Shown one piece after another: positions 23,431 through 44,088 of a stretch of 44,088 nt of DNA; position 1 is the stretch's first letter, and each line of letters begins with the position of its first letter. This DNA is from a virus. The notes beneath the pieces were generated by a model. The model was given only the letters and a program-made list of their open reading frames with translations. It did not search any database and had not been told where the DNA came from. Both the position numbers and the translations under genes were made by a program. The stretch lies in IMG/VR virus record IMGVR_UViG_3300032053_004415, positions 1-44,088 of that record, one strand, 5' to 3'.

Positions 23431-23718
23431 TCACCGGTTTAATGTTTTTAAGTGTTTACCTTCATTGTAAAAAATAATACATCCGTCTACTACTTTTTTG
23501 AATATTTCATTTTTTATGGGGGGTAAAGACTGAACGGAGTGGACGTATAATGTTTGGCATCTATTTAATTTGCTCTTTTTAAATTCTTCATCATCACAAT
23601 TACATAATCTTGCGTATTCATCCATACAAGAACAAAAACTTGAAACGGTAGGAGTAGAGTTAGATAGCCCTGCTGATTTTATCAGTTGATTAAATTGAGT
23701 TATTCCGTTAATGACCAT
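23431..23718 (-). CDS. Cysteine-containing hypothetical protein, last gene of the sugar operon
   Basis: 95 residues with a cysteine group (FCSCMDEYARLCNCDDEEF, near residues 28-46) that may bind metal. The rest (LPPIKNEIFKKVVDG) is helical. It overlaps the previous gene in the operon by 11 nt. Small proteins of this pattern occur beside membrane proteins in other T4-like phages, but no function is known. Confidence 0.6.
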   Translation of the reverse strand: MVINGITQFNQLIKSAGLSNSTPTVSSFCSCMDEYARLCNCDDEEFKKSKLNRCQTLYVHSVQSLPPIKNEIFKKVVDGCIIFYNEGKHLKTLNR

Positions 23719-24055
23719 ATAATTGAGTGGTTATTAAATATATCAATAGTGAGAGTATAAACATTACGGGAATAAATATGATATTACTAAATAATAAACA
23801 CGTTATGGTAGATAACCACACATCTAAACAAATCGGACACGTCACTAATCTAACAAAAAAATTATCGTGTTTCATCCGAAGAAATTGTTGATAAGATATA
23901 GTAATATCTTGTTGTTGTTTATATTCTTTATATTCTATAATTTTTAATAATTTACAAAGAGTTCTGTTTAGTTGAGTATATTCTATAAACGCATCCGTTT
24001 TGAACCATATAATCATCACCATTGATATTAAACATGTTAATGTAAAAAAAATCAT
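23708..24055 (-). CDS. Small integral membrane protein with CPIC motif
   Basis: 115 residues with three hydrophobic segments: residues 2-17, about 80-98 and 99-111. Between the first and second lie a polar helix and VRLVTCPICLDVWLS, similar to the CP-x-C-x-x-x-W motif of DUF1360-like membrane proteins. The ATG overlaps the stop of the glycosyltransferase gene by 4 nt, which ties it to the operon. It may anchor or export the glycan machinery, but this is a guess from context. Confidence 0.65.
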   Translation of the reverse strand: MIFFTLTCLISMVMIIWFKTDAFIEYTQLNRTLCKLLKIIEYKEYKQQQDITISYQQFLRMKHDNFFVRLVTCPICLDVWLSTITCLLFSNIIFIPVMFILSLLIYLITTQLYGH

Positions 24056-25386
24056 AAACGAATAAGTTCTATATCTAACGGAGGATTTTTAACAACAACG
24101 TTTTCTTCTATAACATTTTGAATTCGATTTACTTTGATTTTTATTCCTTCACAGTCGAATTCATCTCCAGGAGTCAATTCGTCTTTATAACTGTGAATAA
24201 TATCATTCATTTGTTGGAGATATTTGTAAAGTTCCGGTGTCATAGTATTCATATCTATTTCTAAAACAATATCATCTTCTACAGGTGCATCGGAGAAAAT
24301 ATCTTCTACATTCCATACTCTATAGTATTTTCCAAATTCTGCCCATTGTTTGTCAGATATATTGAGTATTTCATTTGCAGGATTGTGTAGTTTTTGGTAA
24401 CGGTCTTTAGCCATCTGACGAGTTTGAGGTTCATCGATAAATATTTTTTCAAATAAATGATACATACTAAAAATGCCCGTAGCCTGAACAGGCATACAAT
24501 TTTTGAGATTCACAGATATGTTGTATTTGTAATTTGTCTGTGGGTCATCTACGGCTTCATGTTTGAACCGTTTCCACTTTCTTAGAAACCTCTGCATCTC
24601 AACTTGATCAGCCACAGATTGAAGTTGTGTTCTTCTTTGATTTTCAGGTTTCCACCATTCCTTTCCACGGGAAGATGTGCAAGTAAAATGATAAACAATA
24701 GCCGACCAACATTGTTTCATTTTTAATCCTTGCAGACAGAATCTATATAATAAATCCGAATCCTCCCTCGATCTTCTAAACAGTGTATCATGACCTCCGA
24801 TACTCACCCAATTCTTTTTATATAAAGTAAAAGGAGCGAACCAATAATCTGTGATTCTATCGGTTTTTTTAGACTCAGCAAATCGAGTAAAGACATCTAA
24901 ATCAAACTTTTGGGGATCTAAGCCAAAATCGTGAGTAATCTTCTCTGGAGAAGGGGGATGCAATGGAGGTTCAATTCGGGTGGATGATATGATATTGTGT
25001 TCATTCAGGTGTTTAAGAACTTCCAAATCATATTGATGACATATCACTTGATCTGACTGAAGATAGCTTACAATCTCATGAGTAGCCATTTCAAACATGA
25101 GATTTATATTTCGGGCATATCCTAATGGTATTGGAAGAGGATTGACAACGATTTTAAGGTTTGGGAAGATTTCTTTTTGAGTTTTTAGAAATCCGACAGT
25201 ATCTTGATTGTCATTTTCTACGTAAACTAGAATTTCGTGATCTTTTCGACAAAGATTCTGATTTAACGAGCGGAATAAAAGTTCAACGTGAAAACGTTCA
25301 TTAATTGAGGTATTTATACAGAAACTAATTTGTGAAATCATTTTCTTTTTTCGTTCTAATAATGTACCAATTTCGTCATTTTTCAT
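24052..25386 (-). CDS. Glycosyltransferase family 2-like protein
   Basis: Likely transfers a sugar from the nucleotide donors made by the operon. The GT-A start is ISQISFCINTSINERFHVELLF (in part), with EILVYVENDNQDTVGFL near residue 55 and IPLGYARNINLMFEMATHEIVSYL (in part) near 92-115, the nucleotide-binding half. GGHDTLFRRSREDSDLLYRF (in part) near 212 is the acceptor-side motif with the ED pair. A C-terminal extension of about 170 residues is acidic and of unknown function. The start overlaps the preceding stop. The methionine at residue 16 is an alternative. Confidence 0.85.
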   Translation of the reverse strand: MKNDEIGTLLERKKKMISQISFCINTSINERFHVELLFRSLNQNLCRKDHEILVYVENDNQDTVGFLKTQKEIFPNLKIVVNPLPIPLGYARNINLMFEMATHEIVSYLQSDQVICHQYDLEVLKHLNEHNIISSTRIEPPLHPPSPEKITHDFGLDPQKFDLDVFTRFAESKKTDRITDYWFAPFTLYKKNWVSIGGHDTLFRRSREDSDLLYRFCLQGLKMKQCWSAIVYHFTCTSSRGKEWWKPENQRRTQLQSVADQVEMQRFLRKWKRFKHEAVDDPQTNYKYNISVNLKNCMPVQATGIFSMYHLFEKIFIDEPQTRQMAKDRYQKLHNPANEILNISDKQWAEFGKYYRVWNVEDIFSDAPVEDDIVLEIDMNTMTPELYKYLQQMNDIIHSYKDELTPGDEFDCEGIKIKVNRIQNVIEENVVVKNPPLDIELIRL

Positions 25387-26240
25387 ATCATCATGCTTTC
25401 ATACATTTCAAGTATGCCATTTTCTAATCCTGTTAGTGGTAAATTGAGTGTTGATAACATCGACCCATTCCCTGTATATGGCATCCCCCACCCGCCAGTT
25501 TCTATATGTATTTTTAGATTTGGTTTTCCTACTATAAAAGCGATGCTTGTAGCTATATCAGATAATCTATATTTACTCATATAAGATAAATTTAAAGATT
25601 TATAGTTATAATCTACGACATTAGATACCGTCGTCATTATGTATTGTATAACTTTATATACGTCATTTATAAAAAAATAATCCATAAATTTATCTTGATG
25701 AATAACCATGTATTCTCCATTGATGGCTCGTTGTACGTTATTTTTTATTAATCTAAAATTTTCTTCGAGAGGACCAAAACAACCGAATAATCTTAAATTT
25801 ATAACATTATAAGTTTCTTCATATATTCTTCTACATATAATATTTTTAGCTAATCCATAAGCATCGATGGGATGTTTCTTGAATATATTTTCTTCACAAA
25901 CTCTGAGTATTGGAAATCTTCTATCAAATTCTGCCCCCGATCCGAAAGTAAATAATAACCTATATGATTCTTTGTTGTTTAACAAATTTTCAAACATTAA
26001 TAGATTAGTTTGAAGGTTTTCGTATGATTCTGAATCGGTTCTGTTTCCTCCTTTAACAGCGGTATGTATGACTATATCTACTGTGTTTTTCTTAAAAAAT
26101 TCATCTACTTGATATTTATTAGAAACATCTAATTCTTGATGAGTAGGAGAATACACGTCATATCCTTCCAGCCTAAACATAGGAGTTAAACTTCGGGCGA
26201 TAAATCCTTTCCCTCCCGTAATTAAAACATCGTAGTGCAT
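25383..26240 (-). CDS. Extended-SDR sugar epimerase/dehydratase
   Basis: 285 residues. The nucleotide-binding motif is LITGGKGFIARSL at residue 6 (GxxGxxA/G), followed by an acidic D39 region (ELDVS). The catalytic pair is YGLAK near residue 132 with the usual YxxxK, and GSGAEF takes the place of the active-site serine motif. It is shorter than the 310-330 typical of the family. The gene starts at the same base where the previous one ends. Substrate not predictable, probably a nucleotide-4-keto-sugar. Confidence 0.85.
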   Translation of the reverse strand: MHYDVLITGGKGFIARSLTPMFRLEGYDVYSPTHQELDVSNKYQVDEFFKKNTVDIVIHTAVKGGNRTDSESYENLQTNLLMFENLLNNKESYRLLFTFGSGAEFDRRFPILRVCEENIFKKHPIDAYGLAKNIICRRIYEETYNVINLRLFGCFGPLEENFRLIKNNVQRAINGEYMVIHQDKFMDYFFINDVYKVIQYIMTTVSNVVDYNYKSLNLSYMSKYRLSDIATSIAFIVGKPNLKIHIETGGWGMPYTGNGSMLSTLNLPLTGLENGILEMYESMMI

Positions 26241-26716
26241 TATTTTTTAAGATTTAGATATGCTGGTTGTTTATTATACAGAAATGTATCGTAATATGAT
26301 AATAATGCTCTGTCTGTGTCGGGTTTGTAAATTTGTAATCCATTAACACACATACATACATCAACATCCTCCTCCGCCCAGTGTGTGAATCCTAGATATC
26401 CATAATCTTTATCCCTACCTCCACCAACAAGTTTAACCGGAATTTTATCATGACCAAGATAATTTCTGATAAATTCAAATGGACGATAAAGAAGAAATGA
26501 GGTGATGGAATAACAGACAACAATTTTACCTTCCATCGTCATTCCTACAGCCATACCAATCATAAGTTGTTCAGAAGATAAAACATTAAAAAATCTATTA
26601 GTATGTGTATTTCGAATTTTATCTAATAATCCATATCCTAAATCTCCTGTCAAAACAACTATATTATCATCTTTTTCCATTGTTTTACATAAATAATCAA
26701 AAAATAATTTTCTCAT
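26240..26716 (-). CDS. Transketolase-like pyrimidine-binding (C-terminal) half
   Basis: 158 residues equal to the middle domain of transketolase, which supplies the glutamate for TPP. VLSSEQLMIGMAVGMTMEGK near residues 45-64 holds the glutamate. GYLGFTHWAEEDVDVCM near 107-123 corresponds to GxLGxTHxxxEDxA of the family. It needs the TPP-binding half encoded just upstream (26713-27342). The two genes overlap by 4 nt and would be made together. The third (C-terminal) domain of standard transketolase is missing, as in archaeal and split bacterial forms. Confidence 0.88.
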   Translation of the reverse strand: MRKLFFDYLCKTMEKDDNIVVLTGDLGYGLLDKIRNTHTNRFFNVLSSEQLMIGMAVGMTMEGKIVVCYSITSFLLYRPFEFIRNYLGHDKIPVKLVGGGRDKDYGYLGFTHWAEEDVDVCMCVNGLQIYKPDTDRALLSYYDTFLYNKQPAYLNLKK

Positions 26717-27342
26717 ACTAACATCTCCAATGCCTGTTTATAATCTTCTTCTGACATTATTTTGTAATGAGCGTTCAACCCTTTAAGAAATGGAAACGTT
26801 TCAACGGAAGTCTTACATATGGCTATTTGTGGTAAAAATGATACTAATCTAACAGTTAGATAATCAGCATCAATTTCATCATAAGCGGCATATCCGTTTA
26901 TATTAACATACACATGAATATTTTCAATCTTGTGATCGTGAATAAATCTTAACGCTTCCCATATACATCCTTCTGCACATTCTCCATCACTTATTAATAC
27001 ATAAACATGACCATTTTTATTGGATAGTGCTCTACCGACTGCTACTGTTATTCCCATGCCTAAACTTCCAGTTGAACAATAAATTTTATCGTTTTCGTTA
27101 TAATGTGGATGCCCTCCATGACGAAGAAACAATTCTTCGGCGTTAATTCCATCATATTTTTCTAATACAACATATTGAGCCAGAGCGGCGTGCCCACTTG
27201 ATAGAATAAAAATATCTTCTGGCTGTTTTACTCTAAAAATACGATCAATAATATCAACCGAAGAAAAAAAACTCCCTAAATGTCCCAATTTGTGTTTGTA
27301 TGCAATCTCAACGATTCGTTTTTTAAGATCTTTATTGTTCAT
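26713..27342 (-). CDS. Transketolase-like TPP-binding (N-terminal) half
   Basis: 209 residues. HKLGHLGSFFSSVDIIDRIF near 17-36 is the transketolase GH-x-G-x-x-x-S-x-x-D-I signature. STGSLGMGITVAVG near 90-103 and LISDGECAEGCIWEAL near 115-130, followed by NINGYAA, form the TPP/magnesium motif. It could move two-carbon units between sugars, for example making sedoheptulose 7-phosphate, the usual precursor of heptoses, or a rare ketose. Some standard transketolase residues cannot be judged by eye. Partner: gene 26240-26716. Confidence 0.88.
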   Translation of the reverse strand: MNNKDLKKRIVEIAYKHKLGHLGSFFSSVDIIDRIFRVKQPEDIFILSSGHAALAQYVVLEKYDGINAEELFLRHGGHPHYNENDKIYCSTGSLGMGITVAVGRALSNKNGHVYVLISDGECAEGCIWEALRFIHDHKIENIHVYVNINGYAAYDEIDADYLTVRLVSFLPQIAICKTSVETFPFLKGLNAHYKIMSEEDYKQALEMLV

Positions 27343-27940
27343 GGTTTACTGTGAGTATACCACTTTTACCGCTAGGTTTCAAGATTTTATATTTTTCTAA
27401 TGATCTAGCTATCCCAGCATTAACATCACCGTTCCATAAATCATCAAATATTATTATTCCTTTTTTATTACCTATACATAATACAGATAACTCCACGTCT
27501 ATATCTATATCTTTTTCATGATGAGATCCATCGACATAAACAACAGAGATGTTTAGTTTGTTAAGATCGAATAAATCTTTTTCGAGATCGGTTTTGTTAT
27601 TACCTGAATCTTTAACTTTTTGTAAAAATAATTCGGAAACACAATCAAACAATTTTATGTTTGGGCATATAGATATATTGTGAATACAATTTTCTTTTTG
27701 AGTAGGTAACGGAGTACCCCTTTCATGATAGGTATGTCCATCATCAATAAAAGGATCTATCCCGATTACTGTTACGTTTGGGTTGTTTAACGCTATGCTA
27801 CACATAGTTACTCCATCATACACGCCTATTTCAAGATAGTTTCCTGGACAAATTTTTAAATAATTCGTTACATCCAACACAATCCCGTGGTGGCTACAAA
27901 GTAAAGAATTCCCCTTCAATAATTCAATTGGATCAGACAT
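27332..27940 (-). CDS. Class I SAM-dependent methyltransferase-like protein
   Basis: 202 residues with NYLEIGVYDGVTMCSIAL (residues 34-51), the glycine motif that binds SAM, then IGIDPFIDDG and VVYVDGSHHEKDIDIDVEL (near 133-151), the acidic and histidine pair of the Methyltransferase_24/CmcI-like group, and IIIFDDLWNG. It could methylate a sugar or another operon product. The SAM-binding fold is fairly sure but the substrate is not. It overlaps the transketolase gene by 11 nt. Confidence 0.8.
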   Translation of the reverse strand: MSDPIELLKGNSLLCSHHGIVLDVTNYLKICPGNYLEIGVYDGVTMCSIALNNPNVTVIGIDPFIDDGHTYHERGTPLPTQKENCIHNISICPNIKLFDCVSELFLQKVKDSGNNKTDLEKDLFDLNKLNISVVYVDGSHHEKDIDIDVELSVLCIGNKKGIIIFDDLWNGDVNAGIARSLEKYKILKPSGKSGILTVNHEQ

Positions 27941-27945
27941 TTTAT

Positions 27946-28161: not shown

Positions 28162-28165
28162 ACGA

Positions 28166-29263
28166 TTACCAAATAAAATTATCTCTGTAATATTGTATTA
28201 CACTTGGTAATTCTTTGTCAAATTCACAAGTTATTTTCCATCCTAATGATTTTAGTTTGTTACTATCTATACTATAACGAACATCTTGCCCACTTCTTGT
28301 GTAAGAAAAATCACATATTTCTTCCATATTGTTATTATTCAAACCATTGTCTTTTGATTGGAATGAAAAAAATCCATTCTCATCTTTGTAATTTATAAGA
28401 ATACAATTATTGCCATAAATATTTACCCTAGAATCGGGAATTTGTGAGTCGATTTTTCTTTCAATATTGTGTTTTCCTTTTATACCAAGGATTTTTGCGA
28501 TTTTTGCTACAACTCTCCAATTTTCTATTTCATAATCTCCAGCAATATTATAAATTTCATTTAATTTTCCTTTTTCTACAACAGTTAATATGCCATCAAC
28601 ACAATCATTTATGTGAAGCCATGTTCTGATAGGCAAACCAAGATTATGAAGTGAAATTTTTTTACCAAGAATTAAATTTCGACATGTTTTAGGAATTAGT
28701 TTTTCAGAATTTTGACGCGTTCCCCAAGTATTTGTAGCTCTTCCTATTTTATATTTAATATCATATGTTCTAGCGTAAGATTTTACTAATAAATCTGCAC
28801 TAGCTTTTGAAAAAGAATATGGATTGCTTGGATTATAATTATCCGTTTCTACATGAGACCCGATTCCGATAGCATCTCCATAAATTTCATCAGTAGACAT
28901 TTGATAAAAAAGAGGTCGAATTTTTTTGTGACGAATAATTTCTAATAAATTATGAACGCCATTTATGTTAGATTTTAAAAATTCATTACTGTTTTCTATA
29001 CTATTATCAACATGAGATTCTGCACAAATATTAAATAATATATCTAAGTCTGGAAGATGTTTTATATCATTAATATCTTTATGTTCGAATTTAAATTGTT
29101 TATTATATTTAATTTTAAATTCATCCATTAATTTTGGATAAGAACAATAGGATAATTTATCTACACCATATACATACCACCCCATTGCTAAGCATTTTTC
29201 TGTCAAATGACTTCCAATAAACCCAGCACATCCAGTTATCATGCAAATTTTTATATCATTCAT
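28166..29263 (-). CDS. Nucleotide-sugar 4,6-dehydratase (RmlB-like SDR)
   Basis: 365 residues. CMITGCAGFIGSHLTEK is the NAD-binding motif. CAESHVDNSIENS near 83-95 and STDEIYGDA near 123-131 are typical of dTDP-glucose 4,6-dehydratase (HVDRSI, STDEVYG). The catalytic pair is YSFSK near 153. RTWLHINDCVDGI matches R-x-W-x-x-V-x-D-x-C in the family. It would make the 4-keto-6-deoxy sugar that feeds the 3-dehydratase or epimerase steps. ATG 29263 is chosen, with GGAGG at about 29275-29279. A TTG at 29281 is also in frame. It overlaps the upstream endonuclease gene by 8 nt. Confidence 0.88.
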   Translation of the reverse strand: MNDIKICMITGCAGFIGSHLTEKCLAMGWYVYGVDKLSYCSYPKLMDEFKIKYNKQFKFEHKDINDIKHLPDLDILFNICAESHVDNSIENSNEFLKSNINGVHNLLEIIRHKKIRPLFYQMSTDEIYGDAIGIGSHVETDNYNPSNPYSFSKASADLLVKSYARTYDIKYKIGRATNTWGTRQNSEKLIPKTCRNLILGKKISLHNLGLPIRTWLHINDCVDGILTVVEKGKLNEIYNIAGDYEIENWRVVAKIAKILGIKGKHNIERKIDSQIPDSRVNIYGNNCILINYKDENGFFSFQSKDNGLNNNNMEEICDFSYTRSGQDVRYSIDSNKLKSLGWKITCEFDKELPSVIQYYRDNFIW

Positions 29264-30041
29264 ACATTTTCCATCCTCCAACCGAATTAAATTTTCTTTT
29301 AATTAATTGCCCTAAATTTCCTTGATTTAATTTGTATTTTGTTCTTAAATTATATTGAGTAGATTCTTCGATTCCATGTTTAGGGTGAATAAATTTATAC
29401 ACGTTATTGTCATATTGTGAATGTTTTTCTCCACGTTGTGCATTACTCATTTTTAATCGGGCTTCTATAGAATGAGTTTTTCCTTTTAATTTTTTACTCA
29501 TTTTTAATTTGGTTTCGTCTGAAAGACGTTTTCCAAAAAGATGATTCTTTTTACCTTTACATGCATTACTCATTTTTATTAAAGTTTCAGTTGAAAACAT
29601 TCTTCCTTTAAGTGAATTTCCTATTTTAATTTTTGTTTTTTCGGGAAGACGTTTTCGAAAATGAGGATGATTACTTCCTTTTTTTGCTATACTCATTTTC
29701 ATTCGTGTTTCTGGTGAACGAGTTAATCCTCTACTTGGGCAAATTGAGTTGTATCCTATATTATAAGATTTGAATGGAAACATTTTACACCAATCCAAAT
29801 AATATTGCTCTACCTCTTGTAATTGTTTTGATGATAATTTCTCTTCTATTTTAAATATAAACCCATCCTCTCCATATTTATTCCAAGCATTTTGAAGATA
29901 TAAATTTTTATGTTTATTGTTTTTTAATTCGTTTTTATGATTGATAAATCTACGAGTTATATCGGAAGATGAACCGTAATATACTTTTTCATTATTTATA
30001 TTTGTTATGCTATAAATTCCTGATGTTTTTATTTTTTTCAT
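29256..30041 (-). CDS. GIY-YIG homing endonuclease in the sugar operon
   Basis: 261 residues. The GIY-YIG domain occupies the first 95 residues (SGIYSITNINNEKVYYGSS, NAWNKYGEDGFIF, EVEQYYLDW). At least four NUMOD3-like repeats of the form G-x-x-x-S-x-E-T-x-x-K-M-S follow at 105-215. A short C-terminal HTH-like end completes it. It is tucked between the glycosyltransferase (3 nt) and the RmlB-like gene (8-nt overlap), so translation coupling is kept. It differs in repeat makeup from the endonuclease at 13001. Its host insertion point is a gene boundary, not a conserved codon. Confidence 0.9.
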   Translation of the reverse strand: MKKIKTSGIYSITNINNEKVYYGSSSDITRRFINHKNELKNNKHKNLYLQNAWNKYGEDGFIFKIEEKLSSKQLQEVEQYYLDWCKMFPFKSYNIGYNSICPSRGLTRSPETRMKMSIAKKGSNHPHFRKRLPEKTKIKIGNSLKGRMFSTETLIKMSNACKGKKNHLFGKRLSDETKLKMSKKLKGKTHSIEARLKMSNAQRGEKHSQYDNNVYKFIHPKHGIEESTQYNLRTKYKLNQGNLGQLIKRKFNSVGGWKMYE

Positions 30042-30044
30042 AAC

Positions 30045-31016
30045 TTATAGATAACCTTTCTCTTTCAAATACATATCAACCCGATCCAGGAAAGGTTGAG
30101 GTTTTCCTTTTCCTTGTGTATGTCCTATGAAGTGAGAAATTTTAGATGAAAGACACAAACCCCAACCGCCCATTCCATCTTGTTCGTTTATTTTTCCAAA
30201 TACTGGGTGTGGCCCCCACGACCAATTTGGAACTACATAGTATTCTTTTTCATTCAAAATGTGAGGGTGTTTTCTAGATCTAGCTACATTCATTAAACTA
30301 CAAAACGATTGTTGTTGAGTTTCCAATGCCGTTCTTTGTTCCCCCCATATTTCATTTCCATCCGACCCGATAATACCAGAATAATCAAATAATGATAATA
30401 ATGAAACGAATCTGTCTGTAGACAACCAATCATCATATATTACCAAATCTATACCTTCAAATCCAGAATTAAACCCTAACAGATTTGGATTTCTATATTT
30501 GTAAATATTAACAAATTTTTCTCCATACGAAGACGATAATCGTTGAAAACATACTTTATCACAATTTTGATTGAATGGTTCATATATTAAAATAGGAACC
30601 TCATCTATTAACAATTGTAAAACGTCTTTAAAGTCGGTGTTAATTAGAATATCGTCGTCATAAATCAAATAATAACTTTTTAACAAAACTCGTCTCAAAT
30701 AATGAGGAAGTAAAATGTGATAAATATTATAGAAATTATCAAATCGTTTAATATCCTTATCACTAACTCCATATGCTATTCTGCAATAATCATTAAGATA
30801 ACTTCTAGTATACGGAGTAATATCAAATCCGTAGTTATCTATTAGATCAGACCATTTACTTTTTTCTTCTTTTCCCTCGTTATCCCATAAGATATGAAAT
30901 TCTGGTTCACAATCCATTTCCGATTCTAACATTTTGGTATGAATCTGATGTAAGGCAAAAAACGCCTGTTTGGTTTTATCCCTCATCAAGTTTGCGACCA
31001 CAACTTTGTTTTTCAT
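30045..31016 (-). CDS. Putative GT-A-fold glycosyltransferase
   Basis: 323 residues. YYLIYDDDILINTDFKDVLQ (in part) near residues 116-133 carries the DDD metal-binding motif of GT8-like enzymes. LGFNSGFEGIDLVIYDDW and IGSDGNEIWGEQRTALE near 180-230 are likely acceptor-side segments, and HFIGHTQGKGKP near 295 resembles the HF-x-G-x-x-KPW end of GT8-type proteins. It overlaps the preceding E1 beta-like gene by 4 nt. Family assignment is moderate. The operon context supports sugar transfer. Confidence 0.75.
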   Translation of the reverse strand: MKNKVVVANLMRDKTKQAFFALHQIHTKMLESEMDCEPEFHILWDNEGKEEKSKWSDLIDNYGFDITPYTRSYLNDYCRIAYGVSDKDIKRFDNFYNIYHILLPHYLRRVLLKSYYLIYDDDILINTDFKDVLQLLIDEVPILIYEPFNQNCDKVCFQRLSSSYGEKFVNIYKYRNPNLLGFNSGFEGIDLVIYDDWLSTDRFVSLLSLFDYSGIIGSDGNEIWGEQRTALETQQQSFCSLMNVARSRKHPHILNEKEYYVVPNWSWGPHPVFGKINEQDGMGGWGLCLSSKISHFIGHTQGKGKPQPFLDRVDMYLKEKGYL

Positions 31017-31567: not shown

Positions 31568-31569
31568 AA

Positions 31570-32208: not shown

Positions 32209-32217
32209 ATAATAGTG

Positions 32218-34541: not shown

Positions 34542-34542
34542 G

Positions 34543-36353: not shown

Positions 36354-36363
36354 AACAATGACT

Positions 36364-36391: not shown

Positions 36392-36395
36392 TTTT

Positions 36396-36920
36396 TTATT
36401 TATTTGAATCTCCTAAAGCGTCTCTTTCTGATAAAATAGGCACAATAGGTAAATAAATATCAAGATCATTCCATCGAATTGTTATTTGTTTTCCTTTTCC
36501 ACTATAATATTCAGTCTGTTTGTAAGAAAACACACAAAACTCTGACAAACAAAGATGCCCGTTAACAAAACCAGCTGGAACTAAAATTTGTAATTTATTA
36601 GAGTCATTAATTGTAAATTTTTCATGTTTTTTATAATTTGGAGAATCCTTTCTCATGTCGGCCACAATCAACAAAATTTCCCCCTTTAAACACTGTATCA
36701 ATTTCCATGTTTTACTATCACCATGAAGACCACGAAAGACATTCTGCCGGGAAATAGAAACATCATCCTGAATAAATCTTAGAGGTTTTCCGTCGAAATC
36801 AGTTAAAATAGAATACTTTTCTTCGTTGAAAGTTTCTACATAAGTTCCTCTAAAATCATAAAAAATTTCTGGCTGAATGATTTTTACTTCCCAGAGTATT
36901 TTACTGCTTTCAATGTTCAT
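36396..36920 (-). CDS. RmlC-like sugar 3,5-epimerase
   Basis: 174 residues, the expected length for the RmlC cupin family (about 180). Motifs: PEIFYDFRGTYVETFNEEKY (near 17-36), FIQDDVSISRQNVFRGLHGD (near 49-68, with the FRGLH catalytic histidine region), KLIQCLKGEI and PAGFVNGHLCLSEF. It would epimerise C3 and/or C5 of a 4-keto-6-deoxy sugar. In Campylobacter such an enzyme acts on GDP-4-keto-6-deoxyheptose. It overlaps the next upstream gene by 4 nt. Confidence 0.88.
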   Translation of the reverse strand: MNIESSKILWEVKIIQPEIFYDFRGTYVETFNEEKYSILTDFDGKPLRFIQDDVSISRQNVFRGLHGDSKTWKLIQCLKGEILLIVADMRKDSPNYKKHEKFTINDSNKLQILVPAGFVNGHLCLSEFCVFSYKQTEYYSGKGKQITIRWNDLDIYLPIVPILSERDALGDSNK

Positions 36921-37843
36921 AATTTTTTCAAATGTTGTACGTTAAAATAAACTGAATCGTGAGGGTTGACCACACGTTTTTTGTTTATTATAAAATATAT
37001 CTCTTCTGCGCCGTTTTCAACAGTATATATAGGTGTCCATCCAAGATTTTGATACTTATCAAAGTTAATTTTGTAGTTTCTAGAATCTTCAAATTCCTTT
37101 TCGGTCAATTTTATTTCTACATTTGGAATGGCTAACGCTATTTTTTCAGCCACATTTCTGATGGTATAGTTAGCATATGTCAAATTAAACACCCCACGAA
37201 TATTGTTTTGAAGACCAAATAAAATCGCTCGGCTAACATCTCTCACATGCAGTATTGGCCTCCACTGTTCGCCCCCAAAAACTGAAAGACATTTTTCGGT
37301 GGCTGCTTTGTATGCCAAATAATTGACTATCAAATCCAAACGGAGCCTTGTAAAGAAATCCCCCAACCCAAACAATGTTCCCAATCTAAAAACAAGATGG
37401 TTTGAGTGGTTTTTTGTAATGTATTGTTCGGCTTCTAATTTGGTTTCCCCGTATAATGAAATGGGATTGGTAGGAGAAGTTTCATCCAACATCCCCTCAT
37501 TAATGCCGTAAACGGAACAAGTAGAAGTAAATACAATCTTTCCTTTATAATTATCTACTAACCATTTGACCGTATTAACATTGACTTCTCGGGTCAATGT
37601 GGGATTTACATCACATGCTTCGGCACCAACTATAGCTGGCAACCATACGACAATATCATATTCGTTTATATTATTAAACGTTTTTGGATCTCTTACATCA
37701 CCGTTGATGAACCTAATTGGCTTCATATATCTGGTTTCATATAGAAGGTTATCTATTACGGTCACTTCATGGTTGTTATCAGTAAATAAATCTGTAAGAT
37801 AACCACCAACATATCCTGCACCACCAGCTATCAATATTTTCAT
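36917..37843 (-). CDS. Extended-SDR nucleotide-sugar epimerase/reductase
   Basis: 308 residues. IAGGAGYVGGYLTDLF is the GxxGxxG motif, VIDNLLYETRYM carries the acidic NAD-binding residue, FTSTCSVYG the catalytic serine/threonine and YGETK (near 130) the YxxxK pair. WRPILHVRDVSRAI is the usual R-x-x-x-H-V-x-D segment. It is closest in layout to the gene at 40252 (same YGETK and LRLDL blocks), so the two are probably paralogues. The start overlaps the stop of the fused nucleotidyltransferase gene by 4 nt. Confidence 0.88.
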   Translation of the reverse strand: MKILIAGGAGYVGGYLTDLFTDNNHEVTVIDNLLYETRYMKPIRFINGDVRDPKTFNNINEYDIVVWLPAIVGAEACDVNPTLTREVNVNTVKWLVDNYKGKIVFTSTCSVYGINEGMLDETSPTNPISLYGETKLEAEQYITKNHSNHLVFRLGTLFGLGDFFTRLRLDLIVNYLAYKAATEKCLSVFGGEQWRPILHVRDVSRAILFGLQNNIRGVFNLTYANYTIRNVAEKIALAIPNVEIKLTEKEFEDSRNYKINFDKYQNLGWTPIYTVENGAEEIYFIINKKRVVNPHDSVYFNVQHLKKL

Positions 37844-39192
37844 AATTTTAATTTGTTATAATTTTTTGATAAAACATCAAACGTTCGTTTCAATATATCG
37901 GAACTAGAATCTACTTTAGATCCACCGGTATATATTATTTTTATACCTAATCTATTACATGTTTCTTTTTCTTTTAAGGATGAATTGTTTTCTGTTCTAT
38001 CTCCACCATTACAAAAAATGTGTGGATTTATCTTTTCTAATGTTTTTGACACAGACCTATCCGAATCTATTGATATAACAACTTCATCGACTCCTTTTAT
38101 ATTTGAAACTATATATGCTCTATTTTTTTCATTTATTACTGAAGGTGTCGATTTTAATTTTGCTTGTTGATCGGAATTTATTATAGCTATTAAATATCCG
38201 CCAAGTTTCTTAGCATTTCTTATATAATCTATATGTCCGGCATGTAAAATTTGAAAATATCCACTAATAGCTACATTTATAGTAAATTTTTTAGTAATTT
38301 TTTTACAAATATCTAATAATCTCTCTTGAGACATTTTAAATTTTAACATATTTATATCTTTATGAACCCACTGAATATTGTCTGTTGTATATCCTCTGTG
38401 ATTATCTATTCTATCTAAAGATGATATTCCTTTTTTACTTCTTGTTGAGAAATATAAATCTTCTCCTGTTAAATTACACTTTCCACTTTGCCATAAAAAT
38501 TGTTTATTCATATCTTCCATCGAGACAGAAAAATTTATATTTCTTAAAAATGCGCCGCGCCTTATTGAAGTATAATAATTTTTAGTAATATATCCAATTC
38601 CTTTAAAATTTTTGTGTGTTATATTTATGTATTTTGGAGGCAATCCGACTTTTTTGGATTCATGAGTATTAAAATGTATCTTTATACACGAATTTATAAA
38701 GCCGGAATCATTTTTATTATTTTTCATTAGATTTATATCTTTATGAACCCACTGTACATTATTTTTTACGTATCCTTTAGATGAATTTATTCTGTCTAAA
38801 GATGCTGTTTTGTCTATAAAAGATAACGGCTCATCAACAAAGAAACATTTCTTGTTTTGTTTATTATACAATTTTTCTAAATAATTAATAGAAATATTAA
38901 ATTTTAAATTTCTTGTTTTGGCATTTCGTTTTATTGAATTAAAATAATCCATTGGAATTATTTCCCCCCCTTTCCATTTAGGATTGTTTGGACCAATTAT
39001 ATTTCTTGAACAACATTTATGACAGTTTTTTGTATGTAAAATATTACTTTTAGTTGTTATATAAATATTATTACAATTACAATTGAGACATTTAACTTTA
39101 TATTTAGAATGAATATTTTTCTTTGATTCTACACATTCTATTATTAATCTATCGTTCAATATCTTTCCGGATAAATTTTCTCGTATTCTCAT
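37840..39192 (-). CDS. HNH-HNH homing-type endonuclease fused to HldE-like nucleotidyltransferase
   Basis: 450 residues. Residues 1-60 look like a NUMOD/zinc-knuckle start (NLSGKILNDRLIIECVESKK in part, CLNCNCNN, CHKCC). Two similar HNH-like units follow: one near 115-160 (SLDRINSSKGYVKNNVQWVH) and one near 235-295 (SLDRIDNHRGYTTDNIQWVH). The last 148 residues are a complete nucleotidyltransferase, INVAISGYFQILHAGHIDYI with HAGH at 317-320, CNGGDRTENNSS near 394-405, as in the C-terminal half of HldE (RfaE). The natural start of such an enzyme would lie near residue 303. The frame is open throughout, so it is a true fusion or an endonuclease inserted at the enzyme's N-terminus. Confidence 0.87.
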   Translation of the reverse strand: MRIRENLSGKILNDRLIIECVESKKNIHSKYKVKCLNCNCNNIYITTKSNILHTKNCHKCCSRNIIGPNNPKWKGGEIIPMDYFNSIKRNAKTRNLKFNISINYLEKLYNKQNKKCFFVDEPLSFIDKTASLDRINSSKGYVKNNVQWVHKDINLMKNNKNDSGFINSCIKIHFNTHESKKVGLPPKYINITHKNFKGIGYITKNYYTSIRRGAFLRNINFSVSMEDMNKQFLWQSGKCNLTGEDLYFSTRSKKGISSLDRIDNHRGYTTDNIQWVHKDINMLKFKMSQERLLDICKKITKKFTINVAISGYFQILHAGHIDYIRNAKKLGGYLIAIINSDQQAKLKSTPSVINEKNRAYIVSNIKGVDEVVISIDSDRSVSKTLEKINPHIFCNGGDRTENNSSLKEKETCNRLGIKIIYTGGSKVDSSSDILKRTFDVLSKNYNKLKL

Positions 39193-39197
39193 ATAAA

Positions 39198-39278
39198 TTA
39201 AATATTTATGACTATTCTAAAAATTAAATTTATCATATCTAAAAGATTAGAATATTCAGATACAATTTTTACTTTCAT
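39198..39278 (-). pseudogene. Short coupled open frame before the fused gene
   Basis: Its ATG overlaps the stop of the heptose-kinase-like gene (ATGA), as with nearly every functional gene start in this operon. It stops after 26 codons (MKVKIVSEYSNLLDMINLIF and six more), just before the HNH fusion. It may be what remains of the original start of a gene disrupted by the HNH insertion. It could be the interrupted nucleotidyltransferase or a lost gene. The function cannot be told. Confidence 0.35.
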
Positions 39279-40255
39279 AAGTTTAATGTTGGTTCAAAAT
39301 AAACATGAGTCACTCCGTTAAATTCTAATTTAACATCTAACACGTTTTTATTGAAAATTTCTTTAGCTTTTTCTTTTACTTTGGGGTCACATATACCCAA
39401 TACAAATCCACATCCTCCACTTCCCAGTAATTTTACTCCATAAGCACCAATAGTCAATAATTTTTCAGCAATCTCGTTAATTTTATTGTTGCTTATTAGA
39501 GATGAAATTTTCTGTTTTTCTTTCCACGATTCTAATAGGAGAGTTCCTATTTCTTTCAAATCTTCTTTTAAAAATGAATTATATGCTGTTTTCGATAACT
39601 CCAATATCTTAGTTTTGTCTTTATTATCGTGAGATTTAGCTATTTCTCCAGAATCGGTTCGTTGGTCGTTAGTATAAACTAAAATCAAAGAATCTTCAAA
39701 TAGTTTTTTAAACTCATATGAAACAGGCAATGGCCGAACGAAAAACTCTCCGTTAGTAGTAATTTCAATTGAATTTAACCCCCCATATGATGCCCATATT
39801 TGATCTTGGATGCCTCCTGGCTCTTTGAGTATTTCTCTTTCAATACAAATGGCTTCTGTTGCAATTTTCTTTTTGTTTATGTTTAATCGATATTCTTTCC
39901 ATAACGCATATAAAATAGACACACAAAACGTAGATGATCCTCCCAATCCTGTTCGTGATGGAATATCAGAAAACATGTGTATGTCAACAGAAGTTTGGTC
40001 CGGGCCACTATAACGTTTAAGAATTTCTCTTATTAGAGGATGTTTAATGTCTTTTATATCGGACACTACCTCTTGTTTAGAGTAAGATATAACAGACATA
40101 TCGGATACTATGCTCGGCCTGAATCTGAAAGACGTGTAAATATATTTGTCTATGGTGGTGCCTATCAATAACGATCCATGTTCTTTGTAGAACGACTCAT
40201 AATCAGTCGATCCGCCGAACAAAGACAATCTGAATGGTGCCTTTACAATTATCAT
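39275..40255 (-). CDS. hddA: GHMP-family sugar kinase (HddA-like heptose-phosphate kinase)
   Basis: 326 residues. Motif 1 is IVKAPFRLSLFGGSTDY (residues 3-19) and motif 2 PSRTGLGGSSTFCVSIL (near 99-115). EPGGIQDQIWASYGGLN near 157 is the segment shared by HddA and related kinases. Motif 3 is LLGSGGCGFVLG (near 279). In the GDP-heptose pathway HddA phosphorylates D-glycero-D-manno-heptose 7-phosphate at O-1, before nucleotidyl transfer. A kinase for fucose-type sugars is the alternative. It overlaps its upstream neighbour by 4 nt, and a nucleotidyltransferase follows downstream. Confidence 0.87.
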   Translation of the reverse strand: MIIVKAPFRLSLFGGSTDYESFYKEHGSLLIGTTIDKYIYTSFRFRPSIVSDMSVISYSKQEVVSDIKDIKHPLIREILKRYSGPDQTSVDIHMFSDIPSRTGLGGSSTFCVSILYALWKEYRLNINKKKIATEAICIEREILKEPGGIQDQIWASYGGLNSIEITTNGEFFVRPLPVSYEFKKLFEDSLILVYTNDQRTDSGEIAKSHDNKDKTKILELSKTAYNSFLKEDLKEIGTLLLESWKEKQKISSLISNNKINEIAEKLLTIGAYGVKLLGSGGCGFVLGICDPKVKEKAKEIFNKNVLDVKLEFNGVTHVYFEPTLNL

Positions 40256-41226
40256 ATATTAGTAAAACTGGTGTTTACATTCTTAATTACAGAATATGCT
40301 CGAATCAATTCTTTTACACCACGATCAAGATCAAATTTACAAGACCACCCTAAAGATTCTAATTTAGCGTTCGATACAACATAGTTTCTTTGGTCTGGAT
40401 CTTTGTTAATAGGAGATTCAGTAATATAGAAATCTGGTATTTGTTTTTTAATGGCTAAACACAAATTCATTTTACTCATGTTAATGTTAGTGTTACCAAC
40501 GTTGAACGGTTGTCCTATCATTGTTTCATAACCATGAATACAAAACTTAAATGTATAGGCAATATCTCTAATATGAATAAAGTTTCTCATGAAATGTGAT
40601 TCAAATAGCACAATGAATTTGTCGTTGAACGCTCTATAAACCATATCGTTGACTAACAAATCTAATCGCATTCTTCGTGATACACCAAATACCGTAGCCA
40701 ATCTCAATGTAATAGCAGATCCACAATCCAATAACGCTTTCTCCGCATCACATTTAGTTTCTCCATACAAAGAAATTGGTTTGAGAGGAGTTTCTTCTGT
40801 GCAATGCACGGTTTGATCATCTACTACTTGCCCTACTCCGTATCCTGAATTGGTAGTTGGATAAATAACAACTTGACTTTTGGATATATTATCAGCCAAA
40901 AATTTAGAACTACCATAATTGACCGCTACAGTTTCCGATGGAAATTTTCTACAAGCGGGCATTCCAACATAAGCCGCTAAATGGATAATTATATCATTTT
41001 CTGATGTGAGTTTTCCAAACAACTTTTCATCTCGAACATCACCACAAATAAATTTAAAGTCGTCACGCCAACAATATTCGGTTAAACATGGTTGTTTATA
41101 CAATAGATTATCCAACACGGTCACATCATATAGTAATGGTTTTGGCCAAGCATCATTAGCAGCCAATAAATGTTCTACCAACACGTTTCCAAGATATCCA
41201 GCACCACCAGTGATCAATATTTTCAT
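40252..41226 (-). CDS. Extended-SDR nucleotide-sugar epimerase
   Basis: 324 residues. LITGGAGYLGNVLVEHL is the GxxGxxG motif, FICGDVRDEKLF follows near 58 and IHLAAYVGMPACRKFPSETV (in part) near 80-100. PTTNSGYG replaces the usual catalytic serine motif and YGETK (near 150) is the YxxxK pair. NFIHIRDIAYTF is the R-x-F-I-H-x-x-D segment. The end (LGWSCKFDLDRGVKELI) is typical of these enzymes. It overlaps both neighbours by 4 nt. Probable paralogue of the gene at 36917. Confidence 0.87.
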   Translation of the reverse strand: MKILITGGAGYLGNVLVEHLLAANDAWPKPLLYDVTVLDNLLYKQPCLTEYCWRDDFKFICGDVRDEKLFGKLTSENDIIIHLAAYVGMPACRKFPSETVAVNYGSSKFLADNISKSQVVIYPTTNSGYGVGQVVDDQTVHCTEETPLKPISLYGETKCDAEKALLDCGSAITLRLATVFGVSRRMRLDLLVNDMVYRAFNDKFIVLFESHFMRNFIHIRDIAYTFKFCIHGYETMIGQPFNVGNTNINMSKMNLCLAIKKQIPDFYITESPINKDPDQRNYVVSNAKLESLGWSCKFDLDRGVKELIRAYSVIKNVNTSFTNI

Positions 41227-42413
41227 ATATTATTCAAAATGTTTGTTAGTTTTATAATTTTTTCTTCTTCCAAGTCAGGATAATTACCTATATACCATCC
41301 AAAATGGTGAACATGATCACAAACTGGATGGTTTTTGTATTCTCCACAAAAAAGATCTTTAAGATATGGTTGACGAAGTTGGTTCCCTCCTCCCGACATA
41401 CCTCTTCTAAACTCTATACTCTTTTCATACATGAGTTTTTCAATTTTATTCCGCAATTCAAAATCCGGAGATTTTAACAACAATGTAAAGGCATAATTAG
41501 AGTTGCCTTCTCTATCAAATTCTACAAAATATTTTTTTGGATCTAAATTATCCAGAAATACGTTCAGGCTGTGTGCTCTTTTTTCGTTATTATTATCTAA
41601 TCTATTGAGTTGGTTGATAGCCAACACTGCGTTTATTTCCGTCGATCGCATGTTGTGGGCCGGATAAACGAAAATAAAATCTTTATTTAAATCTGGGTTG
41701 GCGTCAATAACATATTGTTTTAATACCATATCAGTGCTTTCCCTGAGAAGACCGTGAGAACGAAGAATTCTAGCTAATTCATATACGTTTTGATCATCAG
41801 TGCATATCATACCACCTTCAATGGAGGTCATATGATGAGCATAATAGAAAGAAAAGTTAGATATTAACCCAAACGTTCCTAATTTTTTACCTTTAAACGT
41901 GGCTCCGTGAGATTCACACACATCCTCCACTAAAGCGACTTTGTTTCTTTTACATATATCAAGTATTTCATCAGTAATACCATTATATCCAAGAATGTGT
42001 GTCAAAAATATAGCAGATGTTTTTTCTGTAATTTTACTCTCTAATAAACTCCCGTCTAATGCTAGGTTTTTTAGGTTTATATCACTAAATACAGGATTTA
42101 ATCCTGCATGAAGAATTGATGCTATATCCGATACCCAAGTTAAAGGTGGAACTATTATTTCATTTTTATCACGAAATAAATGTTTTAGTATTAATGTGGT
42201 GATTGTATTAGCAGAACTTCCTGAATTTACAAACACACTATATTTTATACCCAACCATTCGCTCCACAATTTCTCAAATTCTATTACTTTTTTAGAATTG
42301 GTTAAAATAGGCATGGGTTGTTGAGACAAAAAATCCACTAATGATTTAATATCCTCGTCTGTGATATTATTATACATCAACGGCCATTTGTAATCGTGTT
42401 TCGAAATTTTCAT
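41223..42413 (-). CDS. colD: ColD-like PLP 3-dehydratase / DegT-family enzyme
   Basis: 396 residues. SGSSANTITTLIL near 64-76 and the aspartate region VEDVCESHGATFKGK near 162-176 bind PLP. The Schiff-base lysine is replaced by histidine in FSFYYAHHMTSIEGG (H193), as in GDP-4-keto-6-deoxymannose 3-dehydratase (ColD), which makes the precursor of colitose. Unlike the RfbH-like gene at 35019 it has no Fe-S cysteine pair, fitting ColD. ATG 42413, giving an ATGA overlap, is chosen over the in-frame ATG 42428. The neighbouring Fcl-like SDR could supply the reductase/epimerase step (ColC-like). Confidence 0.88.
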   Translation of the reverse strand: MKISKHDYKWPLMYNNITDEDIKSLVDFLSQQPMPILTNSKKVIEFEKLWSEWLGIKYSVFVNSGSSANTITTLILKHLFRDKNEIIVPPLTWVSDIASILHAGLNPVFSDINLKNLALDGSLLESKITEKTSAIFLTHILGYNGITDEILDICKRNKVALVEDVCESHGATFKGKKLGTFGLISNFSFYYAHHMTSIEGGMICTDDQNVYELARILRSHGLLRESTDMVLKQYVIDANPDLNKDFIFVYPAHNMRSTEINAVLAINQLNRLDNNNEKRAHSLNVFLDNLDPKKYFVEFDREGNSNYAFTLLLKSPDFELRNKIEKLMYEKSIEFRRGMSGGGNQLRQPYLKDLFCGEYKNHPVCDHVHHFGWYIGNYPDLEEEKIIKLTNILNNI

Positions 42414-43336
42414 ATACTCATATACCAATCAACAGTTTTTTGTATTCCTTCTTCTAAACGAGTCGGTGGAACATATTTTATTTCTTTTAATAAAGTAGAT
42501 ATATCAAAAACTCTTCTTGGTTGTCCATCGGGTTTAGAGGAATCCCATCTGATTTCTCCTTTATAACCAACACTATCAACAATAACATCCACAAGTTCTT
42601 TTATTTTAATTTCTATACCAGTCCCCAAATTAACAGGACCTTTTCCAGAATAATCCTCTGCTGTTTTTATCATGGCTCTAGCGGCATCATCTACATACAA
42701 AAATTCTCGTGTTGCATTTCCAGTCCCCCACACTTCTATTGATGGTAGATTTTCTCCCCTGGCATCCACAATTCTCTTTACAAGAGCGGCAACCACATGA
42801 GATTTGTTTGGATCAAAACAATCTTCGGGTCCATAAATATTGGATGGTATTAAAACTACAGAATCAAAATTATATTGTTCTCTATAAACCCATGACTGAA
42901 CTACCATAGCTTTTTTGGCGGTGGTATATCCAATCATGCTTCCGTCTGCCAATCCTTTAAAAAAATCTTCTTCTTTATATGGTATTGGAACTTCATTAGA
43001 ATATCCTCCTGATCCAAATGCCACTAACTTTTTTACACCATGGATCATAGAATAATGTAATATGTTTGTGTTTATCATTACATTATCATAATAAAATTCT
43101 GCTGGAAAGGCTTTGTTTGCCCCTATTCCTCCAACTCTGCCTGCTAAATGAAATACCACATCAGGCTTTAGTTGAGACAATAAAGTGTTAACGTCGTTCG
43201 GATCTCTTAAATCTCCGTCGTATCTTGAGATGGGTAATATCTCTTTTATGTTTCTTTTGTAAAGAATTTTTGTAAGAGCCTCTCCGACGAATCCATCTGC
43301 TCCCGTAATTAATACTTTTTTATTATCTAATATCAT
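42410..43336 (-). CDS. fcl: GDP-fucose-synthase/ColC-like SDR epimerase-reductase
   Basis: 308 residues. KVLITGADGFVGEALTKILY is the NAD(P)-binding motif, VVFHLAGRVGGIGANKAFPAEFYYDN is the Fcl fingerprint (in part, near residues 60-85), and YTTAKKAM (near 137) has the catalytic Y-x-x-x-K. IPSNIYGPEDCFDPNKSHVV and REFLYVDDAARAMI also match. Fcl makes GDP-L-fucose from GDP-4-keto-6-deoxymannose by epimerisation and reduction. ColC does the comparable step for colitose. Next to ColD, the ColC role is attractive. The stop overlaps the next start by 4 nt. Confidence 0.9.
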   Translation of the reverse strand: MILDNKKVLITGADGFVGEALTKILYKRNIKEILPISRYDGDLRDPNDVNTLLSQLKPDVVFHLAGRVGGIGANKAFPAEFYYDNVMINTNILHYSMIHGVKKLVAFGSGGYSNEVPIPYKEEDFFKGLADGSMIGYTTAKKAMVVQSWVYREQYNFDSVVLIPSNIYGPEDCFDPNKSHVVAALVKRIVDARGENLPSIEVWGTGNATREFLYVDDAARAMIKTAEDYSGKGPVNLGTGIEIKIKELVDVIVDSVGYKGEIRWDSSKPDGQPRRVFDISTLLKEIKYVPPTRLEEGIQKTVDWYMSI

Positions 43337-44088
43337 ACTATAGAAACCATTCTATTCTTTATGTCAATATAAGTGTTATTAATGCCGTTGTCAAGATTTA
43401 CTTTTGATCCCCAACCTATTTCTTTTTTTATTTTATCTGGGGAACACCACTGACAATCAATTTTGGATCTATTGGTACATTTAATTAACGACACATTTTT
43501 TCCTGATGCTCTAATAATAGATTCACATATATCTATAACGGTGTGTTTTGTATTTGTACAGATGTTATACGGACCCAAAAATGGAGACTCATCTAATTTA
43601 TTCATCAACATTAAAATGGCGTCAATAGCGTCATCAATATAACAATAAGATCGATATTCATCTCCCGTTGTTCTAATTTGAAATGTTTCGTGGAGATCAT
43701 TAATTTTAGCACACATTACAGGAATCAAAGATCCGTCGTTGTAATCATACGATTGGCCCGGTCCGTAAATTCCACATAACCTACCAACGGCTATTCTCAT
43801 AAACGAATTTTGTTGGGCGTGGTATTCTAATGTCATTTCTCCGACGTGTTTAGCCACTCCATATGATAGATCCGAACCAAGAGGATCGTTTTCTCTTAAA
43901 GGATCGTGGTCTAATCTAGTTTTGTATATGTGAGAACTACTAGCATAAAAGAATTTTTTGGCTCCAGCCAAAGACGCGAATTGTATTACATTGGCGTCTA
44001 TTTTCGTGTTTACGGCAAATATATCATATGGATAATTTACATATACATCTATCCCACTTACTCTGGATGCCAAGTGGATAACTTCGTC
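43333..44088 (-). CDS. NAD-dependent sugar epimerase/dehydratase (5' end outside the window)
   Basis: The frame is open to the right edge, so the start is missing. The first visible codons read DEVIHLASRVSGIDVYVNYP, the segment that normally lies about 65 residues into an extended SDR, after the NAD-binding motif. YASSSHIYKTR is the catalytic serine block and YGVAK the YxxxK pair. GRLCGIYGPGQSYDYNDGSL and YRSYCYIDDAIDAIL agree with the UDP-sugar epimerase group. A TTG at 44073 is in frame but is not the start. It overlaps the Fcl-like gene by 4 nt. Confidence 0.87.
   Translation of the reverse strand, partial: DEVIHLASRVSGIDVYVNYPYDIFAVNTKIDANVIQFASLAGAKKFFYASSSHIYKTRLDHDPLRENDPLGSDLSYGVAKHVGEMTLEYHAQQNSFMRIAVGRLCGIYGPGQSYDYNDGSLIPVMCAKINDLHETFQIRTTGDEYRSYCYIDDAIDAILMLMNKLDESPFLGPYNICTNTKHTVIDICESIIRASGKNVSLIKCTNRSKIDCQWCSPDKIKKEIGWGSKVNLDNGINNTYIDIKNRMVSIV

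Follow-up and report, generated by a model that had tools for sequence, protein, structure and literature searches.

What sugar would a phage make with an operon of about 25 genes, most of them of sugar metabolism, and to what would it attach it? We addressed this question in a linear virus record of IMG/VR (IMGVR_UViG_3300032053_004415; the whole stretch of 44,088 bp is called the window here), in which positions 23431-44088 of the minus strand are occupied by such an operon. An earlier note on this DNA had described an unbroken run of about 25 genes devoted to an unusual activated sugar, and the listing of open reading frames (ORFs) bears out the run: 24 complete ORFs and one open at its 5' end, the start of the operon having been lost at the contig end, with neighbours that share 1-26 nt or are separated by 1-9 nt; two wider gaps, of 42 nt (36353/36396) and 82 nt (39192/39275), are the only exceptions. 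Every sizeable ORF rightward of 23431 is on the minus strand. This organisation is far beyond chance, as most of the genes have orthologs in other phages, many of them in the same order. We propose, with a probability of roughly one half, that the operon is a functional phage block which makes activated rare sugars that are moved by soluble glycosyltransferases, that a conserved cassette within it leads to a 4-C-branched 3,6-dideoxyhexose, and that this sugar is most likely attached to a virion protein or to DNA and not to a lipid-linked host glycan.

The left part of the window carries, on the plus strand, T4-type replication genes: a gp32-like single-stranded DNA-binding protein, UvsX, an exonuclease, a gp41-like helicase, ribonucleotide reductase, a gp62-like clamp loader and a dNMP kinase. 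The earlier note had named a chimera with host DNA at the junction 23424/23431 as the finding that would overturn its reading. A sister contig in IMG/VR (G001, 73 kb) is 99.993% identical to the window over 43,795 bp, with only three base differences, at 23807-23810; it is continuous across the junction, which it covers at 100% identity, and it extends leftward into genes for a contractile tail sheath and a baseplate hub. In a divergent contig (G002, 100 kb), gene order is the same to the left and to the right of the junction, and the syntenic operon there, of about 30 kb, stops at a dUTPase ahead of DNA polymerase B. The operon has diverged between the window and G002 to the same degree as the core genes, with median identities of 54% and 51%, respectively. 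The same tail-to-tail arrangement with dNMP kinase/gp62 is found in six further contig records, two of which are near-identical to each other. Some of the contigs with the cassette described below also carry T4 structural genes, with the T4 portal in 9 of 34 records tested and the T4-type prohead protease in 9 of 33, compared with none of 14 control genomes. Therefore, we conclude from the coverage of the junction by G001 and from the synteny in several contigs that the operon is phage DNA; the same evidence rules out the chimera.

At the core of the operon is a cassette that we define as RfbH - RmlB - TKN - TKpyr - SDRf, to which the glycosyltransferase GT2a can be added as a sixth member. 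RfbH (35019-36353; all operon coordinates are on the minus strand) is a 3-dehydratase scoring 457.6 bits against the NCBIfam equivalog NF011936 for RfbH/DdhC, the CDP-4-keto-6-deoxyglucose 3-dehydratase (cut-off 423), and an alignment to the structure 3bcx places a His at the position of the pyridoxal phosphate (PLP)-binding Lys and retains the Fe-S cysteines. The RmlB-like NDP-hexose 4,6-dehydratase (28166-29281) scores 268 bits against TIGR01181, and its PDB matches are dTDP-glucose 4,6-dehydratases. The transketolase is split into two genes: TKN (26713-27342; PF00456, 36.8 bits), the subunit that binds thiamine diphosphate (ThDP), whose best PDB match is the split-chain transketolase 6yak, and TKpyr (26240-26716; PF02779, 63 bits), the pyrimidine-binding subunit. 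The two carry the N and pyrimidine domains of a transketolase with their catalytic residues, and the transketolase C-terminal domain (PF02780) is absent after the 158-aa TKpyr. SDRf (25383-26240; PF01370, 73.8 bits) is a short reductase/epimerase of the short-chain dehydrogenase/reductase (SDR) superfamily. GT2a (24052-25386) is sub-threshold in Pfam; its AlphaFold2 (AF2) model (pLDDT 87) has the GT-A fold of a family-2 glycosyltransferase plus an extra C-terminal region, and Foldseek matches it to K4CP, TarP, RmlT and GalNAc-T with E values of 1e-12 to 1e-8.

These genes travel together. We compared 57 distinct viral TKN loci that have sufficient flanking sequence: TKpyr follows TKN in all 57, SDRf is nearby in 56, a protein of the DegT fold in which His takes the place of the PLP Lys, as in 3-dehydratases, is present in 51, and an RmlB-like dehydratase lies within 8 kb in 50. 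A Lys-type DegT aminotransferase was found in none of the 57, although the same search detected three, all in cellular loci. The 3-dehydratase is of the RfbH or the ColD type, Fe-S and Fe-S-free enzymes interchange within the cassette, and two gene orders occur. That two kinds of 3-dehydratase replace each other, in two gene orders, points to 3-deoxygenation, rather than to a particular gene, as the required step.

The cassette is phage-dominated. The TKN profile matched 238 viral contigs, but 84,980 species genomes of bacteria and archaea yielded only 21 loci, in a scan that gave nothing with two query sequences and these 21 with 17. In a TKN tree the phage sequences form one clade, set off by a branch of length 2.08 with support of 100/100; only one phage row, L041, falls outside, a paralog having been picked for it by mistake. 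The clade also contains 11 cellular rows. Four of them (L056, L057, L058 and L059) are nested among the phages; they carry the cassette on short contigs assigned to archaeal and alphaproteobacterial metagenome-assembled genomes and may be phage contigs binned with cells. The rest are mostly an Actinomarina/TMED subclade. Given the 21 cellular loci, the cassette is not exclusive to phages. No split transketolase above about 35% identity was found in INPHARED records, and judging from the openly accessible literature the five-gene cassette appears to be new.

The earlier note would also have been refuted by enzymes that are inactive remnants. In the 17 sequences aligned, the TDE and YxxxK motifs of the RmlB-like enzyme, the ThDP motif (SDG...N) and His residues of TKN and the catalytic Glu of TKpyr (E49) are all kept, as is the YxxxK of SDRf in 84 of 84 relatives. 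The RfbH-like and ColD-like proteins retain the catalytic His, whose position is marked by mutant PDB sequences with Asn or Lys there. For six cassette genes, the median pairwise dN/dS (Nei-Gojobori, dS 0.1-1.5) lies between 0.08 and 0.12 and no pair is above 0.23, with pairs that are not independent of one another. Conserved active sites and a dN/dS of about 0.1 lead us to reject the reading as broken remnants. Such constraint also bears on the suggestion that these genes are non-functional stuffer DNA for headful packaging, an idea raised for cyanophage lipopolysaccharide (LPS) genes (PMC3037559), or else misassembled host DNA. With the low dN/dS medians, stuffer DNA appears very unlikely, and once the active sites, the match to G001 and the conserved synteny are added, we give this explanation as a whole next to no weight.

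Gene identities, catalytic residues, linkage, selection and phage location can thus be read from the sequences; from them we infer the order of the steps, the action of the transketolase on a ketone, the nucleotide, the product and the acceptor. In the pathway that we envisage, the RmlB-like enzyme would convert host NDP-glucose (dTDP or CDP) to NDP-4-keto-6-deoxyglucose, and RfbH would then remove the 3-hydroxyl to give NDP-4-keto-3,6-dideoxyhexose. The split transketolase would put a two-carbon ketol unit on the 4-keto carbon, SDRf would reduce the new branch, and GT2a would transfer the resulting 4-C-branched 3,6-dideoxyhexose. By analogy with known routes, the most likely product after reduction by SDRf would be a 4-C-(1,2-dihydroxyethyl)-type 3,6-dideoxyhexose. 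One such route leads to yersiniose A: CDP-4-keto-3,6-dideoxyglucose receives a two-carbon unit through the ThDP enzyme YerE and then undergoes ketoreduction (PMC12247030, PMC4753412). Transfer of a hydroxyacetyl group to keto sugars by split-gene transketolases has been proposed but never proven (PMC12247030). The cassette content fits the "deoxy and possibly branched" sugars that the earlier note had suggested from the gene list.

Several points weigh against this pathway. In vitro proof of a sugar-ketone acceptor is absent for any transketolase (PMC12247030, section 2.3), and the phage enzyme lacks the C-terminal domain. Six of the 57 loci have no 3-dehydratase and seven no RmlB in the flank. 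Pfam searches found no RfbI/DdhD-type reductase in the window operon, and no NDP-glucose synthase was found in the window (PF00483 is absent there and present in 8 of 33 contigs); both activities would therefore have to come from the host. The hints as to the nucleotide conflict, with a dehydratase that resembles the dTDP type and an RfbH that resembles the CDP type. It should be noted that the contigs are fragments, hence absences are weak evidence. The acceptor, too, is a matter of inference: a virion protein is slightly favoured, DNA is possible, and so is the host surface.

What bears on the acceptor is mainly the kind of glycosyltransferase and the export genes. Judged by its model, GT2a is a soluble-looking GT-A enzyme that resembles K4CP, TarP, RmlT and GalNAc-transferases. 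Neither a phosphoglycosyltransferase (PF02397) nor a flippase (PF01943) was found in any of 33 cassette contigs, whereas 9 and 13 of 14 control genomes have them, respectively; both belong to a Wzx/Wzy-type surface polysaccharide locus. A complete lipid-linked export path is therefore not phage-encoded, while host machinery could be borrowed; the missing pair mildly favours a virion protein or DNA over the host surface. These observations bear on the alternative that the operon is an ordinary cyanophage-style LPS cluster, which makes typical O-antigen deoxysugars, uses its transketolase in no branching role and alters the surface glycans of the infected host, for example to exclude other phages. 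T4-type cyanophages do carry large LPS clusters for which a change of the host surface was proposed (PMC3037559, PMC2984593, PMC7029224), and a second pair of ThDP enzymes in the window, described below, has homologs inside the clusters of S-SM2 and P-TIM68. Yet the 33 cassette contigs lack the initiating phosphoglycosyltransferase and the Wzx flippase, and a conventional pentose-phosphate transketolase would not be expected beside a 3-dehydratase in 51 of 57 loci; we regard this alternative as somewhat unlikely. More doubtful still is that the sugar is placed on phage DNA as a base hypermodification, a variant of our proposal that differs in the acceptor. Other phages hypermodify DNA with sugars, YerA41 has both sugar genes and modified DNA (PMC7354516), and the window encodes a Mom-like DNA modification protein (10605-11393; PHROG 1384, 146 bits) close to ribonucleotide reductase. 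The thymidylate-synthase/dCMP-hydroxymethylase family (PF00303), however, is present in only 8 of the 33 contigs, which are incomplete, and absent from G001 and G002, so glycosylation of hydroxymethyl-pyrimidine DNA is not general among them.

The split transketolase might instead supply nucleotides through the pentose phosphate route, as cyanophage talC does, with its sugar neighbours incidental. Although talC, gnd and zwf occur near such clusters in cyanophages, the pair in question has no C-terminal domain, forms its own clade and is linked to RmlB, a 3-dehydratase and an SDR in distant phages and in two gene orders, which makes this explanation improbable. We also considered tail fibres next to the operon as a clue to the target and set this aside, as collagen-like neighbours are clear only in one locus (L119), with a short GXY-rich end in another (L101), and are not general. 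In L119 (14707-20624) the operon continues into the genes of an unassigned protein of 1041 aa and of a collagen-like tail-fibre protein with 56 GXY repeats, which is a possible glycosylation target.

In its most specific form, our proposal is of a dedicated phage pathway in which a phage-dominated clade of two-gene transketolases serves to put a 4-C-branched 3,6-dideoxyhexose on the phage's own virion proteins or DNA, and in this form we offer it tentatively. It predicts a defined product that is testable with five small genes, whose order, active sites and selection are conserved across many phages. If it is true, the use of a sugar ketone as acceptor would have been shown for a transketolase for the first time. 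The product would be, to our knowledge, a sugar of a kind known from no virus. Branching of a keto sugar by a transketolase would answer a pending question of ThDP enzymology (PMC12247030) and add a virus-made rare sugar, and the pathway would have a bearing on how phages evade host defences or recognise their hosts.

The rest of the operon suggests that the cassette is not alone, and at least two products are more likely than one. A second, more variable module, with Gmd-like, ColD-like, Fcl-like and RmlC-like enzymes, a kinase and a nucleotidyltransferase, would lead to another sugar, which judging from the enzyme types is probably GDP-colitose-like or heptose-derived (GDP-6-deoxyheptose). 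The Gmd/Rmd-like SDR (33585-34541) is of the GDP-sugar type and matches GDP-6-deoxy-D-lyxo-4-hexulose reductase (2pk3) and GDP-heptose 4,6-dehydratase (7us5) in the PDB; the ColD-like 3-dehydratase (41223-42428), with His at the PLP-Lys position, has ColD as its best PDB match and a 64% ortholog in G002; and the Fcl/ColC-like SDR (42410-43336; NF047922, 280 bits) is of the GDP-4-keto-6-deoxymannose epimerase/reductase type. This triad recurs in seven cassette loci, and G002 additionally has GT10- and GT11-type transferases. The RmlC-like 3,5-epimerase (36396-36920; PF00908, 137.8 bits) adjoins an extended SDR identified by Pfam (36917-37843). The GHMP sugar kinase (39275-40255; PDB 4n3o) is HddA-like, in that its best-scoring family is that of the heptose-7-phosphate kinase HddA (NF049969), at 143 bits against an equivalog cut-off of 600, and the nucleotidyltransferase is RfaE2-like and also far under its equivalog cut-off. 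A GHMP kinase is therefore present where the earlier note had a heptose-type kinase, while the heptose specificity, and with it a heptose-derived sugar, is weakly supported. The nucleotidyltransferase (37840-39192; PF01467, cytidylyltransferase-like, RfaE2/TagD type) is fused in frame behind two HNH-endonuclease-like regions. Its ortholog in G002 is a plain nucleotidyltransferase of 140 aa, and the fusion suggests that a homing endonuclease has taken over the beginning of this phage gene, or else an internal start is in use. Two further extended SDRs lie at 40252-41226, with a 59% ortholog in G002, and at 43333-44088, the latter a profile match truncated by the contig end.

The second pair of ThDP enzymes is of the pyruvate dehydrogenase (PDH) E1 type, with an E1-beta-like subunit (31013-31567; PF02779, a transketolase pyrimidine domain) that has homologs in S-SM2 and P-TIM68, and an E1-alpha-like subunit (31570-32208; PF00676, 62.8 bits; PDB matches to PDH E1 alpha) with cyanophage homologs at 36-39%. 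It is found in only one other cassette locus (L103), and our guess, by analogy with AviB1/B2, is that it may provide a second branching activity. In its place G002 has (63261-64963) a second, different split transketolase pair which possesses a C-terminal domain. The radical SAM enzyme (32218-33588) has a B12-binding domain and a CxxxCxxC motif, with both domains over cut-off; its closest solved relative is AprD4, and we would guess that it methylates or deoxygenates a sugar.

Profile searches with Pfam and NCBIfam thus returned the enzyme list of the earlier note with small corrections: both split ThDP enzymes, the B12 radical SAM protein, the RmlC-like epimerase and the RfbH-like and ColD-like 3-dehydratases are there, and the "at least seven" extended SDRs are seven, at 25386, 28169, 33588, 36920, 40255, 42413 and 43336. 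The methyltransferase (27332-27940) is a borderline Methyltransf_24 match, at 27.0 bits against a cut-off of 26.3. Two glycosyltransferases had been listed, of which GT2a stands and the second (30045-31016) is not established: it has no Pfam or PDB match, and the sole hint of a GT8-type enzyme is a DDD and an HTxGKGKP-like motif that are invariant in three sequences, so that we call it a probable glycosyltransferase with GT8-like motifs only. A structure-based reading of this protein was dropped, its AF2 model being too poor (pLDDT 47).

Five genes inside the block are not sugar genes: a GIY-YIG/NUMOD3 homing endonuclease identified by Pfam (29256-30041), a YopX-family phage protein found by profile match (34543-35022), a 71-aa Zn protein, a DUF1360 protein (23708-24055; PF07098, 23.4 bits), which adjoins GT2a in syntenic contigs, and a 95-aa ORF (23431-23718) of no assigned function, which is the last gene of the operon and keeps this place in syntenic contigs. 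The T4-type late promoter TATAAATA has 12 matches against 8 expected, and those on the operon strand in the block are all intragenic, giving no signal. No terminator was found at the convergent junction, and Rfam and tRNA scans found nothing in the window.

Elsewhere in the window, the replication region encodes two DruA-family (Druantia) proteins (17839-19005 and 21061-21786; 74 and 85 bits) that have no match in G002. There is a further homing endonuclease at 12965-13765, and another two large HNH enzymes are encoded close to the tail sheath gene of G001. Conserved proteins of 770 aa (14521-16833) and 266 aa (13752-14552) are also found in syntenic contigs and in Microcystis phage Mel-JY01. 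One of the records collected, G012 (IMGVR_UViG_3300032296_003307; 268,739 bp), contains two T4-type portal genes and two prohead proteases and is therefore perhaps two joined phages.

How does this operon compare with known systems? Sullivan et al. (2010, PMC3037559) described large LPS clusters in S-SSM7, P-SSM2 and S-SM2 without deciding between a function and a role as stuffer DNA. In P-SSM2 such genes number 24 (PMC2984593), similar genes occur in pelagimyophages (PMC7029224), and ddhC/rfbH has been listed singly among marine viral metabolic genes (PMC10653327). Annotated sugar blocks of 16-25 kb are present in S-SM2, P-TIM68, Bellamy, SynMITS9220M01 and RB11-B. The earlier note was thus mistaken in limiting the sugar genes of known T4-type phages to a few, and we reject the idea that the size of the block is unprecedented. 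The window shares with the cyanophage clusters a large contiguous sugar operon, tight and of 16-25 kb, in a T4-type genome; SDRs, kinases, nucleotidyltransferases, glycosyltransferases and RmlC; RfbH (as in RB11-B) and PDH-E1-type proteins (as in S-SM2 and P-TIM68); and an adjoining replication/nucleotide module. It differs in that most of its operon genes are not orthologous: the seven co-occurring T4-GC LPS gene families are not shared, and only weak matches of 27-39% to genes of S-SM2 and P-TIM68 were found. Its position differs as well, since the cyanophage blocks follow nrdB/tRNAs and lie near hli03/phoH, while the block in the window, which has no tRNA, is on the opposite strand beside dNMP kinase/gp62, between dNMP kinase and (in G002) DNA polymerase B.

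With the yersiniose A pathway (Ddh enzymes, RfbH/DdhC, YerE and YerF) the cassette shares a 4,6-dehydratase, an RfbH-type 3-dehydratase, a ThDP carboligase and an SDR found together. YerE, however, is a single-chain enzyme of the decarboxylase superfamily, while the cassette enzyme is a two-gene transketolase; no YerE-type single-chain ThDP flavoenzyme is in the window, whose ThDP enzymes are the transketolase-type and E1-type pairs, and a DdhA-kind cytidylyltransferase and a DdhD-type reductase are missing there. The second module is similar to the GDP-colitose pathway (Gmd, ColD and ColC) in having Gmd-like, ColD-like and Fcl-like genes, but its Gmd-like gene is equally near to Rmd and to heptose dehydratase, and there is no mannose-1-P guanylyltransferase in the window. 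Compared by description, the PDH-E1-type sugar-branching enzymes AviB1/AviB2, Pau11/Pau12 and the aldgamycin alpha-KADH2 belong to the same broad superfamily as the E1 pair and are likewise encoded by two genes among deoxysugar genes. The split-gene transketolases of miharamycin and amipurimycin, compared by description and not by sequence, are also two-gene enzymes proposed to branch a keto sugar, but are known only from Streptomycetes, in the synthesis of nucleoside antibiotics. Overall, it is not the size of the block that is novel but the logic of its product.

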